Assembly (NCBI RefSeq): GCF_018986435.1
Contig: NZ_JAHMIN010000032.1
Location: forward strand, 1-41,856
Length of the DNA: 41,856 bases
Source of the DNA: Hahella sp. HN01
GTDB lineage: Bacteria > Pseudomonadota > Gammaproteobacteria > Pseudomonadales > Oleiphilaceae
Reading direction: 5' to 3'
The notes beneath the pieces are model-generated. The model did no database searches. It was not told where the DNA came from and was given only the letters and a program-made list of their open reading frames with translations. Below, piece by piece: positions 2,970-41,856 of this stretch; within the stretch, counting starts at the first letter, position 1; every line of letters begins with the position of its first letter. The translations under genes and the position numbers were made by a program.

Positions 2970-4249
2970 TGAGCCGCCGCCCCTTCATTCGCTTTGGCGA
3001 ACAGGCCGGCGTTCAGCATGGCTTGCAGTGAGGCTTCCACCGCGTTGATGGTGAAGTCGATCTGCTCTTCCGTATGCACGCCGCAGATGAAGTTGACTTC
3101 ACGACGCAGCAGGACGCCGCGCTTCGCCATTTCCGCCAGAAAAGGCTCGGCGAGCTTCACATGCTCCACTGGATTTTTGGAGAACAGGAACATGGGGATA
3201 GGGTCATAGCCCACCACCTGCAATGGCGTTCCCAGTGCAGCTGAGACTTTATTGACGCCTTCCTTCAGGCGTACGCCCAGTGCGGCGATACGGCCGACGA
3301 AATCCGAACGGCGATACTCGTTCAACACAGCGTCGCACACTTCCAGGGACAGCATTTCACCACCGAAGGTGGTGGAAACCTGCAGCTCTTCCATGCGCTT
3401 CATGTGCTTGGCGGAGCCGACCACCGCGGACAACGACATGCCGGCGGCGATGCCTTTCGACAGGGTGACCAGATCGGCGGAGACGTCGAAGTATTCCTGC
3501 GCGCCGCCCAGAGCGAGACGGAAACCGGTGACCACTTCGTCCATCACCAGCAACACGCCTTTGTCATTACAGGCTTTGCGCACCTGACGCAGGAACTCGC
3601 CGGTCAGCACGCGGTTGTAAGGAACCGACAGCAATACCGCCGCCAGTTTGTCGCCGCGCTCGGCGATCAGATCCAGCACTGGTTGTTCGTCCATGGGCGT
3701 GAACAGCGGCATGCGGTGGGTGTACTGACGAATGACTTCCGGCACGCCGGGGGTGTCGAACATGTACTGATCGTGCCAGCCGTTGTAGCCGACGGTGATG
3801 ATTTCTTCTTTACCGGTGATATGGCGGGCCAGACGCACGGCGGCGGAGTTGGCGTCAGCGCCGGTCTTGAAGAAGCGCGCCATTTCCGCGCCGGGAATGA
3901 TGTCGGTCAGGGTTTGCGCCGCTTTGACTTCCACCGGGGTCGGCAGGGAGTGAATCAAGCCCTTGGACAGGTTTTCGCTGATGGCGCTGACGACAGTGGG
4001 ATGATTGTGTCCCAGCGTGTTGGCGGCGAGACCGCAGATAAAATCGATGTATTCATTGCCGTCGACGTCAGTGACGATGGCGCCCTGGCCGCTGGCGATG
4101 TAAACCGGGAAATGACCGGGAGCGAATTGCTCCGGCTTTTTCATCATGGACTGGGTGAATCCCGCCACCAGCTTCTCGCTCTCTTTGGCGAGTTCGAAGG
4201 ACTTGGTCAGGTTCAGCGTTTCCCCGTTGGGAGTTACCGGCAATGTCAT
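2966..4249 (-). CDS. Class III PLP aminotransferase, MxcL-like
   Basis: A 427-aa fold-type I PLP enzyme of the glutamate-1-semialdehyde aminomutase/aminotransferase family. Asp237 in VMDEVVTGFR should bind the PLP ring nitrogen and Lys265 in LSKGIAAG should form the Schiff base. GAGG lies 6 nt before the ATG. It sits 23 nt after the NRPS gene, whose last domain is a thioester reductase. In myxochelin biosynthesis the reductase releases an aldehyde and MxcL, a GSAM-like aminotransferase, converts it to the amine of myxochelin B. The same role is inferred here. A true haem-pathway HemL is unlikely given the siderophore operon. Confidence 0.85.
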   Translation of the reverse strand: MTLPVTPNGETLNLTKSFELAKESEKLVAGFTQSMMKKPEQFAPGHFPVYIASGQGAIVTDVDGNEYIDFICGLAANTLGHNHPTVVSAISENLSKGLIHSLPTPVEVKAAQTLTDIIPGAEMARFFKTGADANSAAVRLARHITGKEEIITVGYNGWHDQYMFDTPGVPEVIRQYTHRMPLFTPMDEQPVLDLIAERGDKLAAVLLSVPYNRVLTGEFLRQVRKACNDKGVLLVMDEVVTGFRLALGGAQEYFDVSADLVTLSKGIAAGMSLSAVVGSAKHMKRMEELQVSTTFGGEMLSLEVCDAVLNEYRRSDFVGRIAALGVRLKEGVNKVSAALGTPLQVVGYDPIPMFLFSKNPVEHVKLAEPFLAEMAKRGVLLRREVNFICGVHTEEQIDFTINAVEASLQAMLNAGLFAKANEGAAAQ

Positions 4250-4272
4250 AGTTATCCTCGTGATGAGATCAA

Positions 4273-7200
4273 TTAGGGTTTATTCACAGCGGTCCGGTTT
4301 GCGGTGCGCAACAGGCCCGATTCAATGGCGTACTGCAGATAGCGGTGGAACAGGGGCTGATCGATGACAGGCATCGTCAGGCCCAGCTCTTCCATACGTT
4401 GTCGAAATTTGCCGTTGTCGATGCCGCCGGGCTCGAAACTGGGCGCGCCAGCGTCATGACTGCGTTGTTCAAAAAAGCCCAGGATCGCCTGATCCTCTTC
4501 CGCGCCTCTTTCTTTGACGCGCTGGCTCCACTGGGGCAGCGGCAGGGTGTCGAAGTCGAAACCGTATTCCCGCAGCCAGCCGAAAATGCGCGTCAGACTG
4601 ACGTCCTGGGGCGGGGTGACGTTGTACACGCCGCCGCCCGGGCGGGACATAGCGTCGGCGACGATGAATTGCGCCACCGTGTCCACTGGCGTCCAGGGCT
4701 CGCTGATGGGCAGATCCGGCAATGCGTCGCTGCGCATCCCCGCCTGAATGATGCTCCACACCAGGTCTTTGGCGTTGATGTAGCCAAAATCGGACGCGCC
4801 GGTGACCCGGGCGAGTCGATACAGATTGACGGAATAGCCTTTGTCGCGGGCGATTTCCGCCATGCGTTCGGAGGCCCACTTGCTCTGTTGATAGCCATCG
4901 CCCAGCCCGTCATGAATGGGCGTGAAGTCCTCGCGCAGGCTGGGGGTGGCGGACGCCGGCGGCGCCACGGCGATGGTGGACACCAGATGCAGGGGAACGC
5001 CCCGCACGGCGGCCAGCTTCAATAACTCGCCGGTGCTTAATGCATTGGCGGCGCGCAGGGATTGGTAATCACGCATGACGCTGGTGACGGCGGCGTTATG
5101 GATGACCGCGTCTATGTGCTGGGCGAGCTGTTCGAAGTCCGCCACGGACAGTCCCAAGCGCGGCTTTTCCATATCCGCCAGCAGTACCCGCACCCGCCGA
5201 AACGCGCTGCAGGGCAAGCCCTGTTCCGACATCGCCTGCTCCAGACGATAGAAGGCTTCGGCGTCGGTGGCGCCGCGCACGGCGCACAGAATATCGGCGT
5301 CAGTTTGATAGAGCAGTTGATGCAGCAGTTGCGCGCCGACGAATCCCGTGGCCCCGGTGAGCAATATCTGTCTGGGCGCTGCGTTCAGGTCGAATGCAAC
5401 AGTCGGCGCCGGCGGCAGGGATTGGGCGAAAGCGTCGCAGTCCGCCAGAATCTGTTCCCGCAGGTCCCGTGATTGTGGTTGCTCGTCATCCGTTGCAAAC
5501 AACGCCTGAGCCAGCGCGGCGACAGTCGGGCTTTGAAAAATCAAAGTGACCGGTACTTCCCGCCCAATGCGCGCGCTCAGTCTGTTGGCCACCTGAATGG
5601 ACTGCAGGGACTGACCGCCCAGCAGAAAGAAGTCGTCTTCCGGCTTGATGGCGCTTTGGCCCAATACGTCGCGCCAGACCTCAATGATGAGCTGCTGTTC
5701 CGCGCTGACTTTAGTTTGAGGCGAGTCGCTCGCGGACGCTGTTTCGATAGCGTTGAGCTGTTTGCGATCCACCTTGCCGGCGGCGTTTTTGGGCAGGCGT
5801 TCATGCATGACCAGTGCGGATGGCGTCATCGCCGCCGGCAGCCTGGATTTAAGCGCTTGACGCAATTCGGCGATGGCGTAGGACTGTCCCGCCAGATGCG
5901 CCACCAGACACTTCACGCCATTGCCTTGCTGACTCAGGGTGACGGCGGCTTCCTGCACGCCGGGCAGGGCGCTGAGCGCAGACTCGATTTCCAAAGGGTC
6001 GATGCGATGGCCGCTGATCTTGATTTGATCATCCAAACGTCCCAGAAACTCGACATTGCCCTGTGCGTTGATGCGCGCGCGATCGCCGCTGCGATAAGCG
6101 CGCTGCGGCTGTTTGGCCCAGGGGAAATGCATCTGGATAAAGCATTCCGCCGTTTTTTCCGGCAGGTTGAGGTAGCCGTCGGCCAATCCGCCGCCGAGCA
6201 ACAACAGCTCGCCTTCTTCGCCCCGCGGCAGTAGCTCCATCTGTGGATTGACTACAGCGACAGCGCGTCCGCCCAGAGGCTGGCCGATGCTGATGACGCT
6301 GGCGTCAGCGCTGAGGTCCGCGCTGGTGGCGACTACCGTGGCTTCACTGGGGCCGTAAGTGTTGTACAGGGCGATGCGATCGCCGAAACAGCCGCGCCAC
6401 TGCGCCACCCGCTCCGGTAATACCGCTTCGCCGCCAATAATGACGGCGCGCAGACTGGATGGGAGTTCCAGCGATGCGGTGGCGCAGCCGAACGCCAGCT
6501 CATGCCAGTATGCGGTGGGCAGATCCAACAGGGTGACGCCCCATTGACGGCATTGCTCCAGAAAGCGCGGAGCGGATTCCAACATGGCGTCATTGCGCAG
6601 AATAAGGCGCGCTCCCTGCGCCAAGGTGACGAAAATCTCTTCGATGCAGGCGTCAAAGTGCAGCGGCGCAAACTGCAGCACCCGATCCGAGGCGGTGACG
6701 GCGTAAGCGTCGATGGCGCCGGCGACGAACTCCGCCAGAGCCTGATGTCCGATAACCACGCCTTTCGGCGCGCCGGTGGAGCCGGAGGTGTAGATCAGGT
6801 AAGCGGGCCCCGCTTGTGTTGTCGACTCAGACCATAGCGCTGCGTTGCTGACCGCGTCTTGGGATAACGCCGCCAGGCTCACTACCGGCGAGTTGGCGTC
6901 GACGTTTAACTCGGAGTCCGAGGCCTCCGTCACCACCAAAGCGGGGCGGGCGTCTTCAATGATCAAACGATTGCGGGCGATGGGCGCAGCCGGGTCCAGA
7001 AAAACGAATGCGGCTTCGGCGGCCCAGGTCGCCAGCGCCGTTACGATAGCGCCTTCGCTGCGAGGTAGCGCCAGGGCGACGATATCTCCCGGATTCACCC
7101 CAGATTGTCGCAGGCGTTCAGCGAGTCCGGCGACGCGCTGGCCCAGCTCTTCATAGCTGAGGCAGCGTCCGTTCGCCTGCAGGGCGATGGCTTGCGGCGT

Positions 7201-28676: not shown

Positions 28677-28779
28677 TACTCCCTTTATTTAGGACGTAAA
28701 AAATGATGGCGCTGGCTAAGAAGAAGTCAAAAAGGAAGAGAAATTGAATTCTCAGTAAGGCTCTACTACTTTAAAAATG

Positions 28780-28906
28780 GGCTTATGGGCAGATTTTGGG
28801 TCGCGATTCGCGATCTGTGAAAACAATGTCCGAGAGAATTGCTCTTGACAGGCTTTTACACGTGACTGAATAGTACTTGGTCTGTGCGTAAGAGTGCCCA
28901 TAAGCC
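28780..28906 (+). ncRNA. Retron msr-msd RNA
   Basis: A perfect 12-bp inverted repeat (28780-28791 with 28895-28906) forms the a1/a2 stem that brackets retron RNAs. Directly after a1 is AGA with a candidate branching G at 28792. The msr part then holds a 7-bp hairpin (about 28799-28815, ATT loop) and a second hairpin 28827-28850 with one bulged C. A long imperfect stem at about 28853-28894 immediately before a2 is the likely msd hairpin. The RNA ends 21 nt before the reverse transcriptase start. The order a1-msr-msd-a2-RT is diagnostic of retrons. The exact msd ends are estimates. Confidence 0.85.
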
Positions 28907-28927
28907 TTCTTAAATTAAAGAAAGAAT

Positions 28928-30760
28928 ATGAGTAGACTGGAAAATCTAAGGGCTGTGGTGAGTAGACCTCAGCTTGCAAATTTATTAGGTATTCGCCCCT
29001 CTTTCTTGACGTACACTCTCTATGTACGTGGTGTGAGTAGCCAGTATTGTAAGTTCTCGATTCCAAAAAAGGCGGGAGGTAAAAGATATATAAAAGCTCC
29101 CCAAAAAGAGCTGAAATATATCCAGTCCGCTTTGTCTACTCTTCTCTTAGACTGCCTTGATGAAATTAATAAAGAGAAATTCCCAAAATCAGAGTTGGTT
29201 TCACCAAAAGCCGAGCATTCGAAGACACTCAAGGTTAAATGCAATAGTGCGAGAGTAAAACAGCCGTCGCTATCACATGGATTTGAGCGTCAGCGCTCAA
29301 TTATTACTAACTCTATGATGCATCTCGGAAAAAAGAATGTCTTAAATATTGACTTGAAGGATTTTTTTCAGAGTTTTAACTTTGGTCGAGTTCGTGGTTT
29401 TTTTATTAAAAATGAATACTTCAAACTTGACCCTACTATAGCGACGACAATTGCCCAGATAGCCTGTTATGACAACCAGCTTCCCCAAGGTAGCCCATGC
29501 TCTCCTGTTATTACCAATCTTATAGCTCATTCTCTTGACATCAGGCTGGCTCGGCTAGCTAAAAAGTATTCATGCACTTATAGCCGCTATGCCGATGATA
29601 TTACGTTTTCGACACGAGAACGAATTTTTCCTCCTCAGCTTATGCGAGAAGATGATGGCATATATACTCCTGGGAAGCGGCTAAAATCCGAGATCCAGCG
29701 TTCTGGATTTTCCTTGAATGATAGAAAAACACGGATACTATATAGAGACTCACGGCAGGATGTGACAGGGCTGGTAGTAAATCAAAAGCCCAACGTGAAG
29801 AAAGAGTATTGGCGAACAGTTCGGGCTCAGTGCCATTGGTTGTTTAATATTGGAGCCTTTACGATGGTGGTTGATGGTAAAGATATTGAAGGAAATATTA
29901 ATGCATTAGAGGGTAAGCTTAACTTTATCGATCAGCTTGACCATTATAATAGACTAAGGCAAAAACCGGCATTGAACCCTAAGTATCAGTTAAAGAGAGA
30001 AGTAAAAGGTAGAGATTCACTGAAGGCTCGGCGCTATTTATTCAGCGCTCGAGAAAAAACATTTAGTCAATTTTTATTTTATAGGCTATTTTACGCAAAT
30101 GACAAGCCGACTATCCTTACAGAAGGAAAAACAGATAATATATATCTAAAATCTGCCATTCAGTCTTTGGCCGCGTCATATCCAAAATTGGCAATAGAGA
30201 ATCCTTATCAACTACTATGCCATTTTGTCAGCTATACAGAAAGAACGCGTTTTCTACTTGAGCTTTATGGAGGGGCGGACTATTTAAAAGGTTTTATTGA
30301 CAGCTATAAAGATAATTTTGAGATGTATAAAGCCCCGAAACCAAGGCACCCTGTTATTGTATTTGTTGATAATGATAGCGGTCCAAAAGATATTATAAGT
30401 AGAGTGAATGGATTGGGTGAGGCAAGTGTTTTTCCACCTAAAATTGAAAAAGTAAAAGATGTTAGAAAAGCTGATTTCACTCACTTAATGAAGAACTTAT
30501 ATTTGGTTCTTACCCCTCGATCTGAAGCCGATAAAGATACGGATATTGAATTTTTCTTTAAGGACGAGGATAGACTTAGAAAATTTAACGGAAAATACTT
30601 TAATACAGTGGATAATAGAGACGAAACCAAGGATTTGAGTAAAGAAGCTTTCGCCAGAAACATCGTAAAATTTCAAAGGAAGTCTATCGATTTTTCAAAA
30701 TTCACATCTCTTTTAGACAGAGTTGTAGCGGTGATAGATCATTATGAAACTATCAAGTAG
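28928..30760 (+). CDS. Retron reverse transcriptase-TOPRIM fusion
   Basis: A 610-aa fusion. The RT part (about 1-340) shows VLNIDLKDFFQSF, LPQGSPCSPVITN, YADD at 221-224, FSLNDRKTR and the retron VTGLVVN block; NSMMH stands where retron RTs have NAxxH. The C-terminal part (about 385-610) is TOPRIM-like, with TEGKTD (Glu399) and FVDNDSG (Asp481, Asp483). RT-TOPRIM fusions are retron type I-C, with Ec67/Eco2 as prototype. The RT makes msDNA from the upstream RNA and the TOPRIM nuclease is the presumed toxic effector released by phage. The gene is AT-rich compared with the left part of the window. It needs no separate effector gene. Confidence 0.93.
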   Translation: MSRLENLRAVVSRPQLANLLGIRPSFLTYTLYVRGVSSQYCKFSIPKKAGGKRYIKAPQKELKYIQSALSTLLLDCLDEINKEKFPKSELVSPKAEHSKTLKVKCNSARVKQPSLSHGFERQRSIITNSMMHLGKKNVLNIDLKDFFQSFNFGRVRGFFIKNEYFKLDPTIATTIAQIACYDNQLPQGSPCSPVITNLIAHSLDIRLARLAKKYSCTYSRYADDITFSTRERIFPPQLMREDDGIYTPGKRLKSEIQRSGFSLNDRKTRILYRDSRQDVTGLVVNQKPNVKKEYWRTVRAQCHWLFNIGAFTMVVDGKDIEGNINALEGKLNFIDQLDHYNRLRQKPALNPKYQLKREVKGRDSLKARRYLFSAREKTFSQFLFYRLFYANDKPTILTEGKTDNIYLKSAIQSLAASYPKLAIENPYQLLCHFVSYTERTRFLLELYGGADYLKGFIDSYKDNFEMYKAPKPRHPVIVFVDNDSGPKDIISRVNGLGEASVFPPKIEKVKDVRKADFTHLMKNLYLVLTPRSEADKDTDIEFFFKDEDRLRKFNGKYFNTVDNRDETKDLSKEAFARNIVKFQRKSIDFSKFTSLLDRVVAVIDHYETIK

Positions 30761-30768
30761 ATAGTTTC
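30746..30768 (+). terminator. Hairpin over retron stop codon
   Basis: A perfect 9-bp stem (30746-30754 with 30760-30768, loop 30755-30759) spans the TAG stop of the reverse transcriptase gene and is followed by gtttg. The T-run is short, so termination is plausible but not certain. Confidence 0.45.
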
Positions 30769-30948
30769 GTTTGTAACCATTTGACAAAATAAAAGAACGG
30801 ATGAGTGGAATAGGGGAAGCGCCCTGCGATAGTGCTGGATGCCATATCTGAAATTTTCAATGGGCTAATCTATATGTTAATAAGAGAAGGTTTTTTGTAA
30901 GTTTACTTCTATTATATTGATTATAGATTAGCCGTCATGATCACTTAA

Positions 30949-31614
30949 CTAAACCTTTAGTACCGCCAAGTGAAGGCTTGTTTTAAATTTAGGTCCTCTT
31001 CCGCCAGAGTTGCTTCCAACATAAAACCGGTGCAAGTTTTCTTCAGCATCGCTAGCAACAGACTCTGCTCCACCTTGTCTAAGAGCATCATGAAGGCTCC
31101 CTTTGGGTATCTTTATGTTTGTATGATTGCTAAATACCCAAAAGTTGAGAGAGTTGCTACAGCCGAGTTCCGCAGCGGCTGCTCTGATAGCTTTACAAAC
31201 ATTAGAATAAAGGTTTTTGTTTGCATCTACTAATGCTTGCTTAAGTATTGAATCTTCGCCTTCAGAGTTTAAGTTCTTTACATAGATGTCCTGTATAATG
31301 CTTTCCGCGGATACTCTGAAGTAGTTCATGGCTGTTTTAACTGCAATAACAATATCATTCGCCTTTGTTGCATCTACGCCGAAAACCCAAACCTCATTGT
31401 CAATAATTGCTGCTTCCTTTAAAGTTCCTTTTATAAATGTCTGGAAAGGCGAGCCACTCTTAGCATATTTGGCTTTCCAAAGCGAATACGAATCTAGACA
31501 AGTTCTAAGTATAAAGTCTTTTTTTCTTTTACCATTATTAAGAATTAAAGAGACATCAACTTTATACTCGTACCTTCCTTCTGCAATAGACATTGCTCCA
31601 TTATTACTCACCAT
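30949..31614 (-). CDS. Unknown protein in island
   Basis: A 221-aa soluble protein with AT-rich codons. There is no signal peptide or membrane segment and no recognised domain. Segments such as YEYKVDVSLILNNGKRKKDF look like beta strands and the middle (VKTAMNYFRVSAESIIQDIY) is helical. AGGAG lies 3 nt before the ATG. It follows the 109-aa gene by 8 nt, so they form an operon, convergent with the retron. A link to the retron is only positional. Confidence 0.7.
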   Translation of the reverse strand: MVSNNGAMSIAEGRYEYKVDVSLILNNGKRKKDFILRTCLDSYSLWKAKYAKSGSPFQTFIKGTLKEAAIIDNEVWVFGVDATKANDIVIAVKTAMNYFRVSAESIIQDIYVKNLNSEGEDSILKQALVDANKNLYSNVCKAIRAAAAELGCSNSLNFWVFSNHTNIKIPKGSLHDALRQGGAESVASDAEENLHRFYVGSNSGGRGPKFKTSLHLAVLKV

Positions 31615-31622
31615 TATCTCCT

Positions 31623-31952
31623 TTACTTATCTTCAAAAACCTTAGAGCTTTCACCGGTTACGAATTCTGCTTCCCCTGACTCAAGTACTTCTATGGAAAC
31701 ATCCCTTATTTCTTTGCTCTCTTCTGTTAGTTCTTTGAAGTTGCTTGGGTCATACTTCTCGCATTTCCATATATCCATGACCTGCATTTCATTTTCGCTA
31801 AGGTATTCGTCAAAAACGTCAAGTGCTTCTCTCATCGAAGATGCGGGAACAACTACAATACCGACTATATACTCGGAGCCATCTAAATTCATGGGTGAAT
31901 GCTCACTCATAGAAGCTTTATGATGAATAATCCAAGCTGATACAAGTCTCAT
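31623..31952 (-). CDS. Small acidic unknown protein in island
   Basis: A 109-aa acidic protein starting MRLVSAWIIHH, with a GAGGAG ribosome site. The middle (GIVVVPASSMREALDVFDEYLSENEMQVMDIWKCEKYD) resembles a small alpha/beta fold, but I recognise no family. It is the first gene of the two-gene minus-strand operon with the 221-aa protein. Confidence 0.7.
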   Translation of the reverse strand: MRLVSAWIIHHKASMSEHSPMNLDGSEYIVGIVVVPASSMREALDVFDEYLSENEMQVMDIWKCEKYDPSNFKELTEESKEIRDVSIEVLESGEAEFVTGESSKVFEDK

Positions 31953-32335
31953 AGACTTCTCCTCTAATTAATGACAATAAGTCTGATCTGTTTCCATTGT
32001 ATAGACGCGAGTGACCAGAGGTCCATATACCATATAAGTCAATACATAGCATTCTATACATTAATGCGACAATTGGTGTCGCTTAAAAAGTTAAGGCTTT
32101 ATGCCAGTATTACGGAGCTTGTTACTATTATGTCCAATAATCCCCTTTATTCCTCACGAAACTCCTCTTCATTGGGATAGCCACCATTCGAATATGAGAA
32201 CTTTAGCTCTGCATTATGGTGAAAGTCTACTGAGAATGCGCGTAAGTTCCTGATAGTTTGCACTCTTTTACTAGCTAGTAGATGAACAATGAGTTCGAAG
32301 GAGGAAAATACTGCGCTCATAATTATTTAACTCTG
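31953..32335. other. Intergenic, no gene supported
   Basis: 383 nt, AT-rich. A 69-codon open frame at 31971-32180 has no ribosome site or family look and is not called. The region probably contains the promoter of the small two-gene operon at its left end. Confidence 0.4.
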
Positions 32336-32894
32336 TTATTGAAACTCATCCACTAAGTTGTATGGTATGTGCTTACTCACTTCCACGAGAAAGTCATGAA
32401 GGGGAATGTGAGCGTCACAGTGGGATAAGGGTACGCTCCAGCCGTAATCCTCATCCCATCTTATGACATCGTACATATACCTGAGGGCCACCAGAGAGGA
32501 GATGTTACGGTCAGGCTCTCCGTATCGCCACTGGATGATAGCTCCCGGACTTTCTTTCTTATCTGATGGATCGCATACGCCTGTAAGCAGCTCAATAGCC
32601 TCAGAGACGGGCATCCAGGCAAGTATTCTCGCCGTGCAAGAATCGAAACCGATCCAATAACTGTCGCCACTAGGGTCAGTCTGCCGGAAACTAATGTCGT
32701 AAACGAGGCCTGCTGGATACTGGACGGCGAGAATATAATAAGCCCCTCCTCGCTCGGGGTCGCCTTGCATCCATTTTGGACTGTAAGAAACTATCATTAG
32801 CGAAATAGGTGATAATTTGTAATATTTTTGCGGCCCATTGATCACCGGGCTTATCATAAATAGAAAGCGTTATTATGTTGTCTTTAAAATACAA
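32336..32894 (-). pseudogene. Frameshifted, truncated copy of 35566-36480 gene
   Basis: It aligns closely with the N-terminal half of the 304-aa gene at 35566-36480. The original start (MYFKDNIITLSIYDKP at 32894) is in a different frame from the rest because about 8 bases are missing near 32850 relative to the intact copy. The body (from an internal ATG at 32857, 173 codons) retains YPAGLVYDISFRQTDP, IIQWRYGEPDRN and VPLSHCDAHIPL. It then stops at VDEFQ, losing the last 110 or so residues. A shortened protein could still be made from 32857, but no good ribosome site is seen. Confidence 0.75.
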
Positions 32895-32919
32895 TGTATA
32901 GAAAGCCAGCTTGGTAACT
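32351..32919 (-). repeat. Segmental duplication, copy 1
   Basis: About 570 bp, highly similar to 35929-36505 in the same orientation. The match includes 25 or so bases upstream of the start codon (gtatagaaagccagct). It is one copy of a direct duplication separated by 3 kb. Confidence 0.85.
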
Positions 32920-33120
32920 AGCTAATAATATATTGTTAGATTTATATATGGATATAGCGCTTAGATCATCTCATCTTGTGTTCGGGGAAAGAAAAATGAT
33001 AGTTTTTTTCGCCAAACTGGGCGCCAATTTACGAATCGCCTTCGACGAATCCAAGGCTGGCTGTTTCCCAATATTCAGAACGGAACTAGATACCTTCCAA
33101 GGCATATTTGTGAATTCGGA

Positions 33121-34999: not shown

Positions 35000-35566
35000 T
35001 TAATCAGCTCCGCCAATGCCCATATAAAAGCTCAGGCTTGATTGCAGGATGTTGCTTTCTTTATTCGGCAAAAAGGAAACGCTGTATTCGACAAAGTCGT
35101 CGAAGGTGAGTGGTTCTTGAGGCAACCCAAGTGAGAGAGGCTTTTGACCATCAAAAGCGTTTTTCTCCAACTCCGATGTCACTATGCTGCTCAGCGAGGG
35201 CGAATAGGTTGGCGTGAGCTGAGCGTATTGAGCATGCTTTTCGATGATTTGCCCAATGGACTGGCTTGTGGGGGCTGGATTCTGGCTGGAGAAAGAATAG
35301 CTGACCTCAAAGTTATACATGTCACAGTATTTGTGTTCTATAACGGCGATATCGCCATTTTTATACACAAGATAAAGCTTTTTTATATATTCATCACTTT
35401 TTCTGTCTCGTTCTGTGCTCCAGTGTGAAAGCGCCACACTGCTATCTGTTACGGCCGCCTCCTTAACAAACGAAGCTTTATAGTGGCACTGGGCTTCTTC
35501 AGCACAAAAAGCGACAGGCGTAACAAGCATGAGAACAGAAAAACTAACGGCTTTCATTGATGTCAT
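35000..35566 (-). CDS. Exported protein of unknown function
   Basis: A 188-aa protein with a clear signal peptide (about 1-22, ending FCA). The mature part has Cys residues at the start (ECQC-like spacing is absent; single Cys in AQCHYK and KYCDMYN) and no recognised domain. Its ATG overlaps the stop of the upstream 304-aa gene as TAATG, so the two are coupled. Exported plus cytoplasmic partner of unknown role. Confidence 0.7.
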   Translation of the reverse strand: MTSMKAVSFSVLMLVTPVAFCAEEAQCHYKASFVKEAAVTDSSVALSHWSTERDRKSDEYIKKLYLVYKNGDIAVIEHKYCDMYNFEVSYSFSSQNPAPTSQSIGQIIEKHAQYAQLTPTYSPSLSSIVTSELEKNAFDGQKPLSLGLPQEPLTFDDFVEYSVSFLPNKESNILQSSLSFYMGIGGAD

Positions 35567-36480
35567 TATCTTGTTTTGATACCAAATTCATTTAAGTAAT
35601 GAATGAGCTTCCCAAATAAGCCTGCCTGGATTTCAAAGAACTCGTTTTCATGAGCCTCATCATACTTGGGATGGTCATCACTCCAGTAGGGATACTTCAA
35701 CTCCGCCTTCATATGCTCAACTATCGCTACATTTGCCAGCGCTTGAGCTTCCTCACGGGTAAGGCTAATCGCAGTCATAGTGTCAGCCGTTTCCATATCA
35801 CTGGGTGGGGGCTTGTTTAGAATACGCGTCACTTCAGGATAGTTTTCGCTCTCGGCGATGGCTTTTAATTGTGCAATGAGTTCGTCGGGAAGAAACACGG
35901 CTTTCATGGTGGCGCTATGATTACTATCCGCCAGGTTATACGGAATGTGTTTACTCACTTCCACGAGAAAATCCCGAAGCGGAATGTGAGCGTCACAGTG
36001 GGATAAGGGTACGCTCCAGCCGTAATCATCATCCCATTTTATGACATCGTACATATATCTGAGGGCCGCCAGAGAGGAGATGTTACGGTCAGGCTCTCCG
36101 TATCGCCACTGGATGATAGCCCCCGGGCTTTCTTCCTTCTCTGATGGATCGAGTACGCTTGTAAGCAGCGCAATAGCCTCAGCGACGGGCATCCAGGCAA
36201 GTGTTCTCGCAGCGCAAGAGTCGAAACCGACCCAATAGCTGTCGCCACCAGGGTCAGTCTGCCGGAAACTAATGTCGTAAACGAGGCCTGCTGGATACTG
36301 AACGGCGAGTACGTAATAAACCCCTCCTTGCTCAGGTTCGCCTTGCTTCCACTTTGGACTGAAAGAATTCTTCATTAGTGAAAAGGGTAACGCTTCATAG
36401 TATTTTCGGAGCCCATCGCATCGATATTCATTGGGCTTATCATAAATGGAAAGCCCTATTATGTTGCCTTTAAAATACAA
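35566..36480 (-). CDS. Unknown protein, intact duplicate
   Basis: A 304-aa soluble protein. The N-terminal 190 residues (YPAGLVYDISFRQTDPGGDS, WMPVAEAIALL, IIQWRYGEPDRN) match the broken copy at 32336-32894. The C-terminal 110 residues, from MKAVFLPDELIAQLK on, are absent from that copy and look like a separate helical domain. I recognise no family. It is followed in the same operon by the exported 188-aa protein. No signal peptide. Confidence 0.75.
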   Translation of the reverse strand: MYFKGNIIGLSIYDKPNEYRCDGLRKYYEALPFSLMKNSFSPKWKQGEPEQGGVYYVLAVQYPAGLVYDISFRQTDPGGDSYWVGFDSCAARTLAWMPVAEAIALLTSVLDPSEKEESPGAIIQWRYGEPDRNISSLAALRYMYDVIKWDDDYGWSVPLSHCDAHIPLRDFLVEVSKHIPYNLADSNHSATMKAVFLPDELIAQLKAIAESENYPEVTRILNKPPPSDMETADTMTAISLTREEAQALANVAIVEHMKAELKYPYWSDDHPKYDEAHENEFFEIQAGLFGKLIHYLNEFGIKTR

Positions 36481-36664: not shown

Positions 36665-36913
36665 TTGTTCTTGCGTTTTTTTTCTCGTGCTAACAGTCTC
36701 ATTCAACGGATTAATACGTTTGGAACTATGGCAGTTCCAATACTGGCGGGAACATTGGTTGCTCTCTTTGGCGTAGGAGCTGGGCTGACGGTATTGATGT
36801 CAGCGTCTTCGGTTCTGCTCTTGATAGGTATTGGCTACACGCATCGGCCGTCAGCGAGTGAAGTCCACGCTTTGATTTGCGCTGCATCGGGAAAGTTGGA
36901 GAGATTTTACTAA
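36665..36913 (+). pseudogene. Possible MFS transporter C-terminal remnant
   Basis: An 82-codon open frame reading RANSLIQRINTFGTMAVPILAG then GAGLTVLMSASSVLLLIG, like two helices from the second half of an MFS or similar permease. It lacks an ATG with ribosome site and everything upstream. It is probably a decayed fragment left by insertion or deletion. The call rests on a short hydrophobic match only. The 925-nt gap 36481-37405 otherwise holds the structured leader. Confidence 0.35.
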
Positions 36914-37405: not shown

Positions 37406-38152
37406 GTGCAGTTAACAGAGCTATCAATTATAGATGAAGTAGCCGAAAGACTACTTGACCTACCAAAGGATGTGAGTAATGACGAGGCCATAAAGTCTAA
37501 CCTGGATTTTATGAAGGGGCTTGTTAAAGAAAATATCCCAGAGCGTATGCTGCTGGAGATTCTGGACTCTGAAGAATTGTTGGAGAAAATCGCGGGCCGT
37601 TCATACGAGCACGTCAATCACTTCGACAAAATAGTACTAGTAGATAACCCTGACCCAAGAGGGTACAGGTTGACCCTACACAATTGGAACCCAAATCTGG
37701 ACGACTCTAAAAGGCATGAAGAGTTGGTTCATAATCATCGATTCAGCTTTTGGTCTCATATTTTCAGAGGAAAACTCTCTTCTGATAATTTCATTGAGGC
37801 GGATGAAGAGTCAGTAGAGCTGAAAACATTCCGTAAATATAAGTATATGCCTTCAAAGACAGGAAATATTCATACCTGTGATTTTGAAAGCGAAGCCCAA
37901 CTGAACAAGATCGCTAAAACGGAATATGTTAAGGGACAAACCTACTATCTGAATTACCTCGTTACACACAGAGTTAATTTTCCTGAAAAAGGTGAAGCGT
38001 TATGCACCTTTGTGCTGCGCGGCCCAAGAGAAAGGGAGTTCACAAATACCTATAACACGTTCTACCCCGATCGTGGCAAGGAGCATAACACTCCTATGAT
38101 GAGCCCGGCGCAATTGGAAAATAAACTAAGAAGGATTTTGGAATCAGCATGA
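37406..38152 (+). CDS. Cupin-like protein
   Basis: A 248-aa protein, GTG start with AAGGGA upstream. After an N-terminal helical region (1-70), a probable cupin barrel has VHNHRFSFWSHIFRGKL with His109, His111 and His118, and a later THRVNF block that may give another metal ligand. The usual cupin Glu is not obvious. Cupins of this form are metal-dependent dioxygenases, isomerases or sensors; the reaction is unknown. Its stop overlaps the next start as ATGA, so it is the first gene of a tight six-gene operon. Confidence 0.65.
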   Translation: MQLTELSIIDEVAERLLDLPKDVSNDEAIKSNLDFMKGLVKENIPERMLLEILDSEELLEKIAGRSYEHVNHFDKIVLVDNPDPRGYRLTLHNWNPNLDDSKRHEELVHNHRFSFWSHIFRGKLSSDNFIEADEESVELKTFRKYKYMPSKTGNIHTCDFESEAQLNKIAKTEYVKGQTYYLNYLVTHRVNFPEKGEALCTFVLRGPREREFTNTYNTFYPDRGKEHNTPMMSPAQLENKLRRILESA

Positions 38153-38970
38153 AAAGTCTGAAGATAGATAACTCTCAACCAGTATTTGAAGTAAAAAAGG
38201 GCCATAACGTATTTAATCAACTTGCTGTAAAAGTTGATATGAACGGCGTGACGGATGAGCAGTATTTTGAATGGCTGGACTTCGTGGCTGAAGATGCGGC
38301 GAAACACATCAACGGCGTGCGCTTTCTGGAAAAGGAAGGCGTCAGGGAGAATCCGCCTCTAAATACCGCCGTCTACTACGACACCAAAGATTATAAGCTC
38401 TTGCCGACAGGTGCGCTTTTACGGACTTCATGCAATAAAGTCACTCATGCTTTCTGCGCTTTTAAAATGCCGGAAAATGAGCATGGTAACAGGCTGGATC
38501 GGCGTCATGTTTTTCAGGACGAGAAGAAAAAGCAAATTCAGGAGGCTCCATACAGTCCTGAGTCCGTCAAAATTGTAAAAGACTTACTCAAGGATCAAGA
38601 GCTTGATCAGCCAGGTAAGTATTTGTTCAGAGAGTTTAATATCGCTGGCGATGAGCTGGAGCCAGCTGTTGTTCTCTTTGGTAACCGTTCTACGTTCTTT
38701 GTTCGAATTGACGAGTATGACGTACTCCGTTGCTCATTGGATCGATCCAGAGTCATGGATTACAGAAAGGATATTAATGGAGAACGAAAGGCTTTCTTCC
38801 AGGAAGTGGAAATCTCCATATACCCAAGAATCAAAAAAGAAATCTCTGAAGATGTGCGCATTATCGAGCTGATTGACTATCTGGTGGATAGCTTGAAGCA
38901 GCGTTTCTCAACAAAGGTTATCTATGACATCAAGTATCAGCGCGCGGCTGAAGCGTTAGGAATAGAGTAA
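38149..38970 (+). CDS. CYTH/triphosphate-tunnel-like protein
   Basis: A 273-aa protein. AVYYDTKDYKLLPTGALLRTS (about 74-94) resembles the CYTH pattern in which a beta strand and Arg line a triphosphate tunnel. FREFNIAG, FFVRIDEYD and EVEISIYPRI continue the alternating charged strands of that fold. The N-terminal ExExK signature of CYTH is not clear, so the call is tentative. CYTH and VTC-like proteins act on inorganic or organic triphosphates. ATGA overlap with the cupin gene. Confidence 0.5.
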   Translation: MKSLKIDNSQPVFEVKKGHNVFNQLAVKVDMNGVTDEQYFEWLDFVAEDAAKHINGVRFLEKEGVRENPPLNTAVYYDTKDYKLLPTGALLRTSCNKVTHAFCAFKMPENEHGNRLDRRHVFQDEKKKQIQEAPYSPESVKIVKDLLKDQELDQPGKYLFREFNIAGDELEPAVVLFGNRSTFFVRIDEYDVLRCSLDRSRVMDYRKDINGERKAFFQEVEISIYPRIKKEISEDVRIIELIDYLVDSLKQRFSTKVIYDIKYQRAAEALGIE

Positions 38971-38978
38971 CTGGCGAT

Positions 38979-39003
38979 AGCCGGACACGATGCGTGTCCG
39001 GCT
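38979..39003 (+). promoter_or_regulatory. Intercistronic hairpin
   Basis: A perfect 11-bp stem (38979-38989 with 38993-39003) with ATG as loop, in the 49-nt gap between the CYTH-like and histidine phosphatase genes. No T-run follows, so it more likely sets mRNA processing or stability than terminates. Confidence 0.65.
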
Positions 39004-39019
39004 GACCTTTGGGAAGATA

Positions 39020-39586
39020 ATGAAAATACATCTTATCAGGCATGGTCAATCCAAGTGGCAAACAGGAGAGAGCGCCAGTAAGGATAGCGCCCTTACTGAA
39101 CTCGGCGTCAGGCAATCGCTGCTGCTCGGGGGAAGGCTGTCCGCAATCGTTAACGATAACCAAACGGAGAACGTGTTTTATAGCAGTCCGTTGATTCGGT
39201 CTGTGCAGACAATAAACGCGGCTGGCGTTAATTACTCGATTGCTACCGGATTGAAGGAAGCAAGTTTTCATGTGGCGAGCGAGCTGCCAGGTTTCGCACA
39301 TCCGGCGGAACATGAGCGGTTACTTTCCGATAGCCAAAAATATCTGTATTTCAGGCGCACTGTTGAAGATGTGTTCAAACAGCTTACGAATAATGAAAGT
39401 AAGGATGTCTTTCTATTTACTCATGGAGGAGTGATTAAAACTATTCTGAGAGTGATTCATAGTACAGACACCGTTTGCTACAAGATAAACAATTGCTCAT
39501 TAACAACACTTACATGGCGTCGCTCTAGATGGCACATGGATGCGCTTAATGAGTGTAATCATCTTCCATTGGAAATGGTGACTTAA
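39020..39586 (+). CDS. Histidine phosphatase (PGM-like)
   Basis: A 188-aa branch-1 histidine phosphatase. LIRHGQS gives Arg7, the phosphorylated His8 and Gly9; SSPLIRSVQT gives the second Arg region; FTHGGVIK gives His135. Length is typical for small phosphatases of the CobC/PhoE/SixA type. The ATG at 39020 begins MKIHLIRHG; an upstream ATG at 38990 lies in the hairpin loop. Substrate unknown; the neighbours suggest a phosphorylated nucleotide or small molecule. Confidence 0.9.
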   Translation: MKIHLIRHGQSKWQTGESASKDSALTELGVRQSLLLGGRLSAIVNDNQTENVFYSSPLIRSVQTINAAGVNYSIATGLKEASFHVASELPGFAHPAEHERLLSDSQKYLYFRRTVEDVFKQLTNNESKDVFLFTHGGVIKTILRVIHSTDTVCYKINNCSLTTLTWRRSRWHMDALNECNHLPLEMVT

Positions 39587-39591
39587 ATTTT

Positions 39592-40407
39592 ATGAGTGAA
39601 AATGGATTTTTGCAGAGTTGTTTCAGGGAGATAAAGTGCAAGCATAAATCTCATTTACACAAAAAATCAGGCTTCGATGATTCAAATGGATTGATAATTT
39701 TGAAGCCGGAATTGGCGAATAGTTTGATTAATACCGAAGCGGTATTTTCATACTTCCACCTGCTTTGTGATAAATACAGTGTTTGCATTGACAGCTGTCA
39801 TATTCTCCCAGGCAGATATTTAAAAGAACATAACTTGATAAATGGCGTATATGAGAAAGCCTATGTATACGCATCCATGTCCCCCAATGTGTTCGCTGCA
39901 AATCAAGAGCTGTACACGCGCATTGTTGCGCTATCCGGCTCCGAGTGCGAGGTATACGGAAGTCTGTCGTTACAAAGTTTAGGCTACTCTAGCCAACACA
40001 TAATGGCGCTTTGGCGTTGTGGTGAGCCAGCCGTTCGTATTGAAGAGGGACTTTATGTTGTTGAAGCAGACCTGGATGGAAGAAGAATAGTTCTGGCCAA
40101 TGGATTTTACCCGCTTCAGCTTAGTCATTTTATATCGGATAAAAGCCGCTCTATCTTCTTTACTTTTCATTCGGATTCGCCCTTTGAAATATTGAAGTTT
40201 TTTCTTCAAGGAAGTACGAACCCGGAAGAAAGTCACCCAGACTCCTTAAGAGGATTTCTGTATAGAAATAAAGATAAATTCGGGATTGATATAAATATAT
40301 CAAGAAACGCCATACATCTGTCTGGCTGTGAGCAGGAAGGGATCAGGGAGGTAGATTTAATGAGAGAGTTAAAAGTCTGGAGTACAGTGGAAGTTAGGGA
40401 ATCATGA
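39592..40407 (+). CDS. Divergent nucleoside diphosphate kinase-like protein
   Basis: A 271-aa protein, nearly twice a normal NDK. GLIILKPELA (about 33-42) matches the NDK opening strand, and the C-terminal segment DSLRGFLY followed by SRNAIHLSG and REVDL matches the NDK active-site region. Asn and the phosphorylatable His (His242) are kept. The central part (about 90-200) is expanded and not NDK-like. The start is 5 nt after the phosphatase stop with no ribosome site, implying coupling. Activity on nucleoside diphosphates is possible; a specialised transferase is the alternative. Confidence 0.6.
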   Translation: MSENGFLQSCFREIKCKHKSHLHKKSGFDDSNGLIILKPELANSLINTEAVFSYFHLLCDKYSVCIDSCHILPGRYLKEHNLINGVYEKAYVYASMSPNVFAANQELYTRIVALSGSECEVYGSLSLQSLGYSSQHIMALWRCGEPAVRIEEGLYVVEADLDGRRIVLANGFYPLQLSHFISDKSRSIFFTFHSDSPFEILKFFLQGSTNPEESHPDSLRGFLYRNKDKFGIDINISRNAIHLSGCEQEGIREVDLMRELKVWSTVEVRES

Positions 40408-41225
40408 GCACTTATATCATCGGAGACATTCATGGGTGTGCGAATGAGTTGGACCGTTTGCTCCGTGAAATTAAGTTCAACCGACTCCACGACAAGCTCA
40501 TTCTTACTGGAGACCTGGTTGGTAGAGGTCCCGACTCCGAAGAAGTAATAGAACGGCTTATGGAGTATGGCGATGCAGTGGTTAAGGTGCTTGGCAACCA
40601 TGACTTGAAATTTCTGGCGACGCACTATGGGTTGGCTCCACCGAAGAAGCTGGATAACACGGAGAGGCTGTTGCGCAGCCATAGAGTTAAGGACTATGTC
40701 GCCTGGCTTGAGGACTCCAAATTTACTCATTGGGATGAGGGCTGCGCCGTCATTGTGGTGCACGCGGGCGTACCGCTTAACTGGCCGGTCAGTCAGCTCA
40801 GGAAAAAGGTGATGTTACTGGAGAAATCCGTAGCGGAGCATGGGTATGAATGGCTTCTCCGCAAGATGTATAGCATTGGGTTGCCTGATCATCTGAACAA
40901 TGACTTTGAATCAAATCTTATATATACCGCACAGGCGCTAACCAGGGTCAAGTTTGTAGATGAAAATGGCCAAATGAATACCCTATTCAATAGTGCGCCA
41001 GGATCTCAACCCAATTATCTCTACCCTTGGTATGCGTGTAGAGATGTGAAGAGAAACGCAGGATACAAGATTGTATTTGGTCACTGGGCGGCGCTGGGTT
41101 TGACCATTGGTGATTATTACATATGTTGTGACGACGGTTGTGTTTGGGGAGGAAATCTATGCGCAATTAACTTGGATGATTTAAGTGTCACCAAAGTGGC
41201 GAGTGACTATAAAGCGGATGCATAG
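40404..41225 (+). CDS. ApaH-like diadenosine tetraphosphatase
   Basis: A 273-aa calcineurin-like phosphoesterase with the full metal set: GDIHG at 7-11, GDLVGRGPDS at 36-45, GNHD at 64-67, VVHAG with His120, and FGHWAALG near the end. Length and order match ApaH, which splits Ap4A to two ADP and removes Np4 caps from RNA. It is a second, operon-borne version in an island, so a substrate other than Ap4A is possible. ATGA overlap with the NDK-like gene. Confidence 0.9.
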   Translation: MSTYIIGDIHGCANELDRLLREIKFNRLHDKLILTGDLVGRGPDSEEVIERLMEYGDAVVKVLGNHDLKFLATHYGLAPPKKLDNTERLLRSHRVKDYVAWLEDSKFTHWDEGCAVIVVHAGVPLNWPVSQLRKKVMLLEKSVAEHGYEWLLRKMYSIGLPDHLNNDFESNLIYTAQALTRVKFVDENGQMNTLFNSAPGSQPNYLYPWYACRDVKRNAGYKIVFGHWAALGLTIGDYYICCDDGCVWGGNLCAINLDDLSVTKVASDYKADA

Positions 41226-41248
41226 ATGTAAAATAAAGGAGTGTGGTT

Positions 41249-41856
41249 ATGGATATTGTTATTGTTGTTTTAATATTTTCTATCGTGCAATCTATATTGG
41301 GCGTTGGTTTGTTAGTTTTTGGGACGCCTACGCTACTCATGCTGGGCTATGGATTTATAGAGACGTTAATTATACTTTTACCTTGCTCTTTAGTCATCAG
41401 TGCGGTGCAAGTAAGCACTTCATGGCGTCAGATCGATAAACTGAAATTAACCCTTCCATTATTATCTATTCCCACCATTGCTATTGGGATATATTTTTCC
41501 GCTAGTTTTGATGGGCCCAGTGTACTATACTCGCTGATTGGTGTGGGAATGGTGTTGACGGCTATTTCGAGATTATCTGTTAAAGCATCTGCTTTCATGG
41601 GCCGTCTTGCTTCGCGTTTTCTCTTCTCATATATTCCAATTATGGGGCTGATACATGGATTGACTAATATGGGAGGCGCTTTGCTTACCATACTTGCTTC
41701 AAATCTATACAGTGATAAGGGAAAAGTGCGTAGCAATATAGCGTATGGATATTTGATCTTTGCTATAGCGCAGCTAACTGTTATCTTCACTATCCTGGGC
41801 GAGGATATTCGCTCTCTAAATTACTATTATCCAGTCATGGCGGTTGCTGTTTATTT
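41249..41856 (+). CDS. TauE/SafE-family permease, cut by window end
   Basis: An open frame from ATG 41249 (AAAGGAG upstream) to the window end, 202 codons seen. It is strongly hydrophobic with about six helices; SILGVGLLVFGTPTLL and HGLTNMGGALLTILAS are the paired Gly-rich half-repeats of TSUP (TauE/SafE) proteins. These move anions such as sulfite or organosulfonates. It lies 23 nt after the ApaH-like gene and ends the visible operon. It may export or import the operon's product. The C-terminus lies outside. Confidence 0.85.
   Translation, partial: MDIVIVVLIFSIVQSILGVGLLVFGTPTLLMLGYGFIETLIILLPCSLVISAVQVSTSWRQIDKLKLTLPLLSIPTIAIGIYFSASFDGPSVLYSLIGVGMVLTAISRLSVKASAFMGRLASRFLFSYIPIMGLIHGLTNMGGALLTILASNLYSDKGKVRSNIAYGYLIFAIAQLTVIFTILGEDIRSLNYYYPVMAVAVY

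Follow-up and report, generated by a model that had tools for sequence, protein, structure and literature searches.

The window analysed here consists of the first 41,856 bases of a 77,849-base contig of Hahella sp. HN01 (genome 7.13 Mb), and its last part, from position 37406, holds the beginning of an operon. We propose, with a probability of roughly 0.6, that this operon is a biosynthetic cassette which moves horizontally between bacteria and serves to produce and export a small molecule derived from a nucleotide, perhaps an antimetabolite. In the list of open reading frames (ORFs) it appears in the window as six tightly packed ORFs, head to tail on the forward (+) strand. An earlier reading made from the letters alone (the sequence-only reading) had described six packed ORFs with ATGA overlaps, and these are present as described: start and stop overlap by 4 nucleotides (nt) between O1 and O2 and between O4 and O5, and the remaining gaps in the window are 5-19 nt. 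The same reading had pointed to the DNA beyond 41856, where the operon continues with an MFS transporter gene and a gene for a CYTH protein. The operon genes are as follows (coordinates past the window end are those of the contig; aa, amino acids):

37406-38152, +, O1: predicted three-histidine cupin with a thiol-dioxygenase-like fold, 248 aa
38149-38970, +, O2: protein with a predicted triphosphate-tunnel (CYTH) fold, 273 aa, ExExK replaced
38990-39586, +, O3: histidine phosphatase, branch 1 (Pfam PF00300, E 1e-23)
39592-40407, +, O4: divergent nucleoside diphosphate kinase (NDK)-like protein
40404-41225, +, O5: ApaH-type symmetrical tetraphosphatase-like phosphoesterase
41243-41856 in the window, gene end at contig 41962, +, O6: TauE/SafE-like permease, with one N base just beyond the window end
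41979-43163, outside the window, after O6, O7: MFS transporter
43160-43654, outside the window, after the MFS gene, O8: CYTH protein of 164 aa, ExExK present

Recurrence and mobility of the gene set

The gene set is a recurring cassette and not a chance array. Relatives were found through searches with O2, followed by gene-by-gene profiles over the loci, and the count comes to 13 distinct organisms after merging entries with equal coordinates (G466 = L006, G475 = L007). The O2 scan of genome contigs used two conserved peptides and returned 7 relatives among 119 pattern matches; because it relied on these two peptides, more distant relatives may be missed. With the centre genome counted, O2 occurs in 2/7 genomes of the genus (the window genome and the sister genome G001) and in 1/369, 4/246, 2/345 and 1/299 genomes of the other samples. 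Besides the window genome, the organisms are:

Same genus: sister genome G001
Alphaproteobacteria: Pseudaestuariivita rosea (L008); an uncultured member of the class (L009)
From the family sample of the L008 genome: L037
Acidobacteriaceae metagenome-assembled genome (MAG): L012
Erwiniaceae: Pantoea alfalfae (L005); Erwiniaceae bacterium PD-1 (L006); Pantoea rodasii (L010); Erwinia piriflorinigrans (L011)
Pantoea sp. Nvir (L013); Candidatus Pantoea carbekii (L007); L031 (1.1 Mb genome, from the family sample of E. piriflorinigrans)

The window O2 is 62% identical to that of P. rosea and 58% to that of the uncultured alphaproteobacterium, 49-55% to five Erwiniaceae proteins, 48% to L012 and 46% to L037. 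O1, O2 and the histidine phosphatase are found in 13/13 organisms (broken copies included), and the NDK-like gene in 10/13 (broken in Pantoea sp. Nvir, no match in Ca. P. carbekii, L012 and L037). O1 immediately precedes O2 in 12/13 loci; in L012 a Nudix gene stands between them, and the phosphatase lies about 6 kb away. Other genes vary: MFS transporter at 8/13 loci, TauE-like permease and a VOC-family gene at 6/13 each, Na/H exchanger-like and inositol-monophosphatase-like genes at 3/13 each, ribonucleotide reductase at 2/13, and the ApaH-type and short CYTH genes at the same 4/13 loci and no others. At least four of the six families named by the sequence-only reading stand together in 9 of the 12 other organisms, one of them with a broken O1 and one with a broken NDK-like gene. 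Distances among the O1, O2 and phosphatase proteins correlate (r 0.92-0.95), partly as an Erwiniaceae clade effect, and are not used as proof.

Comparison of the window genome with G001 reveals purifying selection on all eight operon genes, with ratios of nonsynonymous to synonymous substitution rates (dN/dS) between 0.031 and 0.193: O1 0.037, O2 0.031, phosphatase 0.083, NDK-like 0.193, ApaH-type 0.117, TauE-like 0.087, MFS 0.055 and CYTH 0.111. In two further sister genomes, both without O2, the operon block is missing from the same site, which is cargo-like behaviour: about 0.17 kb stands in place of 34,894-43,784 in G004, and about 0.56 kb in place of 36,637-43,784 in G006. Of the 56 kb examined, the part at 37406-44565, which takes in a downstream leucine-rich repeat (LRR) protein gene, has a GC content of 0.442, and the remainder one of 0.56.

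Six of the 13 loci are or resemble plasmids. Four are plasmid records (L005, L006, L007 and L013), and the contig of L009 and L084 (C29 of genome G376) is very probably a circular plasmid and likely complete, because its 25,045 bases carry a 55-base repeat at both ends, RepA and MobA/MobL genes, and a ribonucleotide reductase gene that continues across the contig ends; it also has ORFs resembling ParA and TraG, and a LuxR-type regulator. Such a regulator gene stands beside the cassette in both this organism and P. rosea. The sixth, L031, is a circular-looking plasmid of 6,905 bases (GC 0.225, 127-base end repeat) that holds an IncFII-type RepA, O1, O2, the NDK-like gene, the phosphatase and four ORFs of 63-96 aa, the smallest gene set found. 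L007, L013 and L031 belong to three strongly reduced genomes, that of L031 being of 1.1 Mb and the other two of about 1.2 and 1.4 Mb, and all three carry the cassette on plasmids. Ca. P. carbekii is recorded from a stink bug midgut, and plasmids are mentioned in a paper on stink bug symbiont genomes (PMC8032781). Alphaproteobacteria, Pantoea of plant seeds, a gut symbiont of a stink bug and a lineage of Acidobacteriaceae are among the hosts of the cassette.

On the plasmid of Pantoea sp. Nvir, the region 3306-6766 beside O1 and O2 contains a divergent gene group for a Gfo/Idh-like dehydrogenase, a DegT-type aminotransferase, a Nudix-like protein and a HisN-like phosphatase, which looks like an amino-sugar pathway.

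The encoded proteins

The two proteins at the head of the operon, O1 and O2, are without a name in Pfam and NCBIfam, and fold prediction bears out the terms cupin and CYTH-like that the sequence-only reading had given them. O1 has no match in either database, and against the sequences of solved structures it gave four useless matches (best E 0.44). Its AlphaFold model (pLDDT 88.1) has thiol dioxygenases as its closest folds, with the cupin fold and the three metal-binding histidines of cupin thiol dioxygenases, and H109, H111, H188 and R88 are invariant in 12/12 intact sequences. O1 is accordingly predicted to be a three-histidine cupin whose fold is nearest to thiol dioxygenases, thiol oxidation itself being putative. 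In the places searched, which did not include a scan of the large genome collection for O1 alone, O1 was seen only together with O2, so that O1 without O2 may exist.

O2 is predicted to adopt the triphosphate-tunnel fold. It shares this fold, basic residues and an ExE strand with the triphosphate tunnel metalloenzymes (YgiF, AtTTM3, thiamine triphosphatase, yeast VTC), a group that together with CYTH proteins is defined by an ExExK signature on the first strand. O2 differs from them in reading Q24-x-A26-x-K28 at this position, as located from the alignment and the first long strand of the model and not from superposed coordinates; both glutamates are replaced (by Q, and by A or S) in 12/12 intact sequences, while the invariant basic residues and the C-terminal ExE strand (E219/E221) are kept. 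There was no Pfam CYTH match at E up to 1, no useful match elsewhere in Pfam, and none in NCBIfam or among PDB sequences; profile comparison with CYTH proteins gave an 18-column match (P 8.3e-05, probability 60.7%). The missing glutamate pair suggests that O2 does not perform the usual metal-dependent triphosphate hydrolysis. A VTC-type polyphosphate polymerase was also considered for O2 and rejected, the similarity being in fold only; the profile comparison with four ORFs from VTC-family loci covered 10 columns and is a weak test, the L040 ORF not being a VTC protein.

Of the remaining proteins, O3 is a His_Phos_1 protein (PF00300). O4 matches NDK (PF00334) at E 0.0094 and 16.3 bits, under the Pfam gathering cut-off of 27, and retains KPE, R220 and the NxxHxS motif, the context of the NDK catalytic histidine; N239, H242 and S244 are present in 9/9 intact sequences, and alignments to the structures 4di6 (E 0.17) and 3q83 (E 0.91) span the NxxHxS part. 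O5 reaches 260.8 bits with NF001204, symmetrical bis(5'-nucleosyl)-tetraphosphatase (cut-off 176), and 171 bits with TIGR00668 apaH (cut-off 222.85), and O6 scores 33.2 bits with TauE, barely above the cut-off of 32.6. O8 scores 43 bits with Pfam CYTH (cut-off 23.2) and has EIERK in the alignment, and is thus a true CYTH protein; a genome-wide CYTH search missed O8, which the Pfam scan finds, and recovered the copy of the sister genome.

Proposed pathway and competing explanations

In the pathway that we favour, O4 would phosphorylate a nucleotide, or a precursor resembling one, up to the triphosphate, which O2 would hold in its tunnel and then convert. O1 would carry out an oxidative step whose target is either the triphosphate substrate of O2 or a small partner molecule that perhaps contains sulfur; the O3 phosphatase would take off the last phosphate, and the MFS protein, and perhaps the TauE-like permease, would export the product or a by-product. 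In the version found in the window, the removal of triphosphate or dinucleotide by-products may fall to the ApaH-type enzyme and to O8, the genuine CYTH protein; both look accessory because they co-occur in the same 4/13 loci only.

The link to nucleotides comes from the genes that accompany the core in relatives. P. rosea and the uncultured alphaproteobacterium have an adenosylcobalamin (AdoCbl)-type ribonucleotide reductase directly after the CYTH gene (NrdJ_Z, 498.5 bits, in the former; a Pfam barrel domain in the latter), with a VOC gene just past it, and since each genome holds two more reductase loci elsewhere, the cassette reductase is an extra copy. The Acidobacteriaceae MAG has HisG, HisF and a PurC-like protein beside the core, in addition to HAD, Nudix, aldo/keto reductase, GMC oxidoreductase and glutamine amidotransferase genes, and a second HisG on another contig. 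The Erwiniaceae loci L005, L006, L010 and L011 contain the VOC gene, and three of these four also have a deoxynucleoside kinase-like gene that scores under the Pfam cut-off. The VOC-family gene (6/13 loci) is a candidate self-protection gene. A 2-oxoglutarate (2OG) oxygenase and a carbamoyltransferase further downstream in P. rosea need not belong to the cassette, because neither was recognised in the ORF lists of the L009 contig. Of the two functions that the sequence-only reading had offered, making and exporting a phosphorylated or nucleotide-derived molecule is the better supported, given that the cassette recurs mostly with exporters and in places with an extra reductase or with HisG and a PurC-like protein.

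Several observations weigh against a biosynthetic cassette. The NDK-like gene is without a match in three of the 13 loci, and the MFS profiles are without one in five, although in L037 an ORF between the phosphatase and the inositol-monophosphatase-like gene resembles an MFS protein that the profiles did not match. O1 is broken in P. rodasii, and two of the three reduced genomes have a broken core gene (O2 in Ca. P. carbekii, which also lacks an NDK-like match, and the NDK-like gene in Pantoea sp. Nvir); with core genes broken in some relatives, the product would not be retained in every host. The extra genes of the reductase- and HisG-bearing clusters could serve other, adjacent pathways. The gene set, its recurrence, the conserved residues, the purifying selection between two genomes and the absence from the same site in sister genomes are observations and the folds are predictions, whereas the nucleotide substrate, the order of the steps and a role as antimetabolite are inferred. 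The term antimetabolite perhaps applies on the strength of the exporters, the VOC gene and precedent.

As for precedent, no described system with this gene set was found in full-text literature, a search in which no reference cluster database was compared, and the nearest cases each differ from it in some respects. The clusters for oxetanocin and albucidin (PMC7074753) are very small gene sets, the oxetanocin genes being on a plasmid according to a title cited there; oxetanocin formation starts from a mono- to triphosphate deoxynucleotide from which a phosphohydrolase removes phosphates, and the albucidin operon includes a putative ribonucleoside-triphosphate reductase gene, albC, whose deletion left production in a heterologous host unaffected. 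The cassette resembles these in its tiny gene set, its plasmid location in some relatives, the proposed phosphate removal and, in L008 and L009, a reductase gene; unlike them it has no recognised radical SAM enzyme in the window operon. Pentostatin-type clusters (PMC12648386) encode a HisG-like PenA, a dehydrogenase PenB and a SAICAR-synthase-like PenC. This trio is absent among the window operon proteins; in the Acidobacteriaceae MAG, O1 and O2 are accompanied by HisG and a PurC-like protein, together with an aldo/keto reductase and not a short-chain dehydrogenase. SbzM of the altemicidin/SB-203208 antibiotic cluster (PMC9113183) is a cupin oxygenase that acts on L-cysteine and is compared there with cysteine dioxygenase. 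It shares with O1, by description, the position of a cupin within a gene cluster; the window operon differs in being without an AMP ligase or carrier protein.

Among other explanations, metabolic repair or salvage, in which the set would detoxify nucleotides or similar compounds that are damaged or of foreign origin and then export the waste, appears unlikely. Common families of house-cleaning proteins (ApaH, CYTH, histidine phosphatase and VOC) are all matched in the clusters, but ApaH, CYTH and VOC are present at only 4, 4 and 6 of the 13 loci, and most of the core consists of O1 with its oxygenase-like fold, O2 and an NDK-like kinase. The sparse distribution within the genus would fit a niche function; three relatives, on the other hand, add anabolic enzymes (a reductase, or HisG with a PurC-like protein), of which the reductase and HisG are extra copies.

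We consider it quite improbable that the operon is a defence cassette whose enzymes respond to phage infection by breaking down an alarmone, a nucleotide signal or the nucleotides of the phage, the other function offered by the sequence-only reading. By family or fold, four of the gene products can be placed among the phosphate-ester enzymes, the operon occupies a variable chromosomal site, and 6.6 kb upstream of it stands a retron gene:

28928-30760: retron-type reverse transcriptase with Toprim (best PADLOC model RT-Toprim_I-C, E 1.6e-226)

This physical neighbour is not linked to the operon in G001, which retains the operon; there, the homologous site is occupied by 5.4 kb of different DNA in which blastn (E 1e-10) finds no match to 28677-33100 of the window. 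PADLOC-DB 2.0.0, with systems to 2023, matched none of the six window operon proteins at E up to 0.1 (O7 and O8 not scanned), and no homologue of O2 was found in phage records or viral contigs, nor of O1 in phage records. Two relatives adjoin arsenic genes or transposases, and one has MobA and ParA-like genes, in flanks outside the PADLOC scan. An exporter and extra biosynthetic enzymes also fit defence badly, and the PADLOC result, the phage and viral collections and the lack of retron conservation leave the defence reading unsupported. That the operon sets a nucleotide second messenger, with O2 as a divergent class IV-like cyclase or a polyphosphate maker on account of its fold, is more improbable still, as the ExExK glutamate pair is replaced in all intact sequences, no recurring effector or receptor gene was recognised, the VTC comparison was short, and neither exporters nor an additional ribonucleotide reductase would be expected of such a system.

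Neighbouring genes and implications

The gene that follows O8 is a flank and not part of the operon, because the same DNA is present in two sister genomes without the operon: its region matches G004 and G006 at the nucleotide level from 43785 onward. Membership of this gene in the operon was therefore ruled out. Further features near the cassette, here and in relatives, are:

43647-44564 (contig): LRR protein gene, next after O8
L005 8224-8622, L008 9534-9935, L084 14911-15621: VOC-family genes, on the strand opposite to the cassette
L005 13882-14139, L008 133-471, L009 6515-6856: small proteins of 85-113 aa near the cassette

The small proteins of L008 and L009 are related (29.6% identity, E 3e-14) and appear Sm-like by eye; those of L005 and L009 have no Pfam match. 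Just upstream of the operon, a short ORF at 36665-36913 resembles the final part of an MFS transporter and is possibly a remnant. Three proteins near the operon, two of them in the window (32336-32857, 35566-36480 and contig 44611-45087, the last being L002 8212-8688), look alike by eye around the motif YPAGLVYD.

If the operon is a mobile biosynthetic cassette, it would add a compact, mobile class of pathway for nucleotide-type metabolites, one in which a tunnel-fold enzyme without the usual glutamates and a thiol-dioxygenase-like cupin would act together. Standard cluster finders would probably overlook it for want of a recognised type of scaffold synthase. A bolder version, which we hold to be doubtful, is that O1, O2, the NDK-like protein and the phosphatase represent an unrecognised class of nucleotide-derived natural product, in which O2, no longer hydrolysing, would let the triphosphate depart as a leaving group or exploit it as a handle in new reactions of nucleoside or deoxynucleoside triphosphates, and the tripolyphosphate released would then be destroyed by the neighbouring CYTH protein; such a four-gene pathway would be among the smallest of nucleoside type, and partly spread by plasmids. 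The presence of the cassette on plasmids of reduced genomes, two of the three with a broken core gene, raises the question of what role the compound has there, and heterologous expression is brought within practical reach by the 6.9 kb plasmid with its four-gene version.

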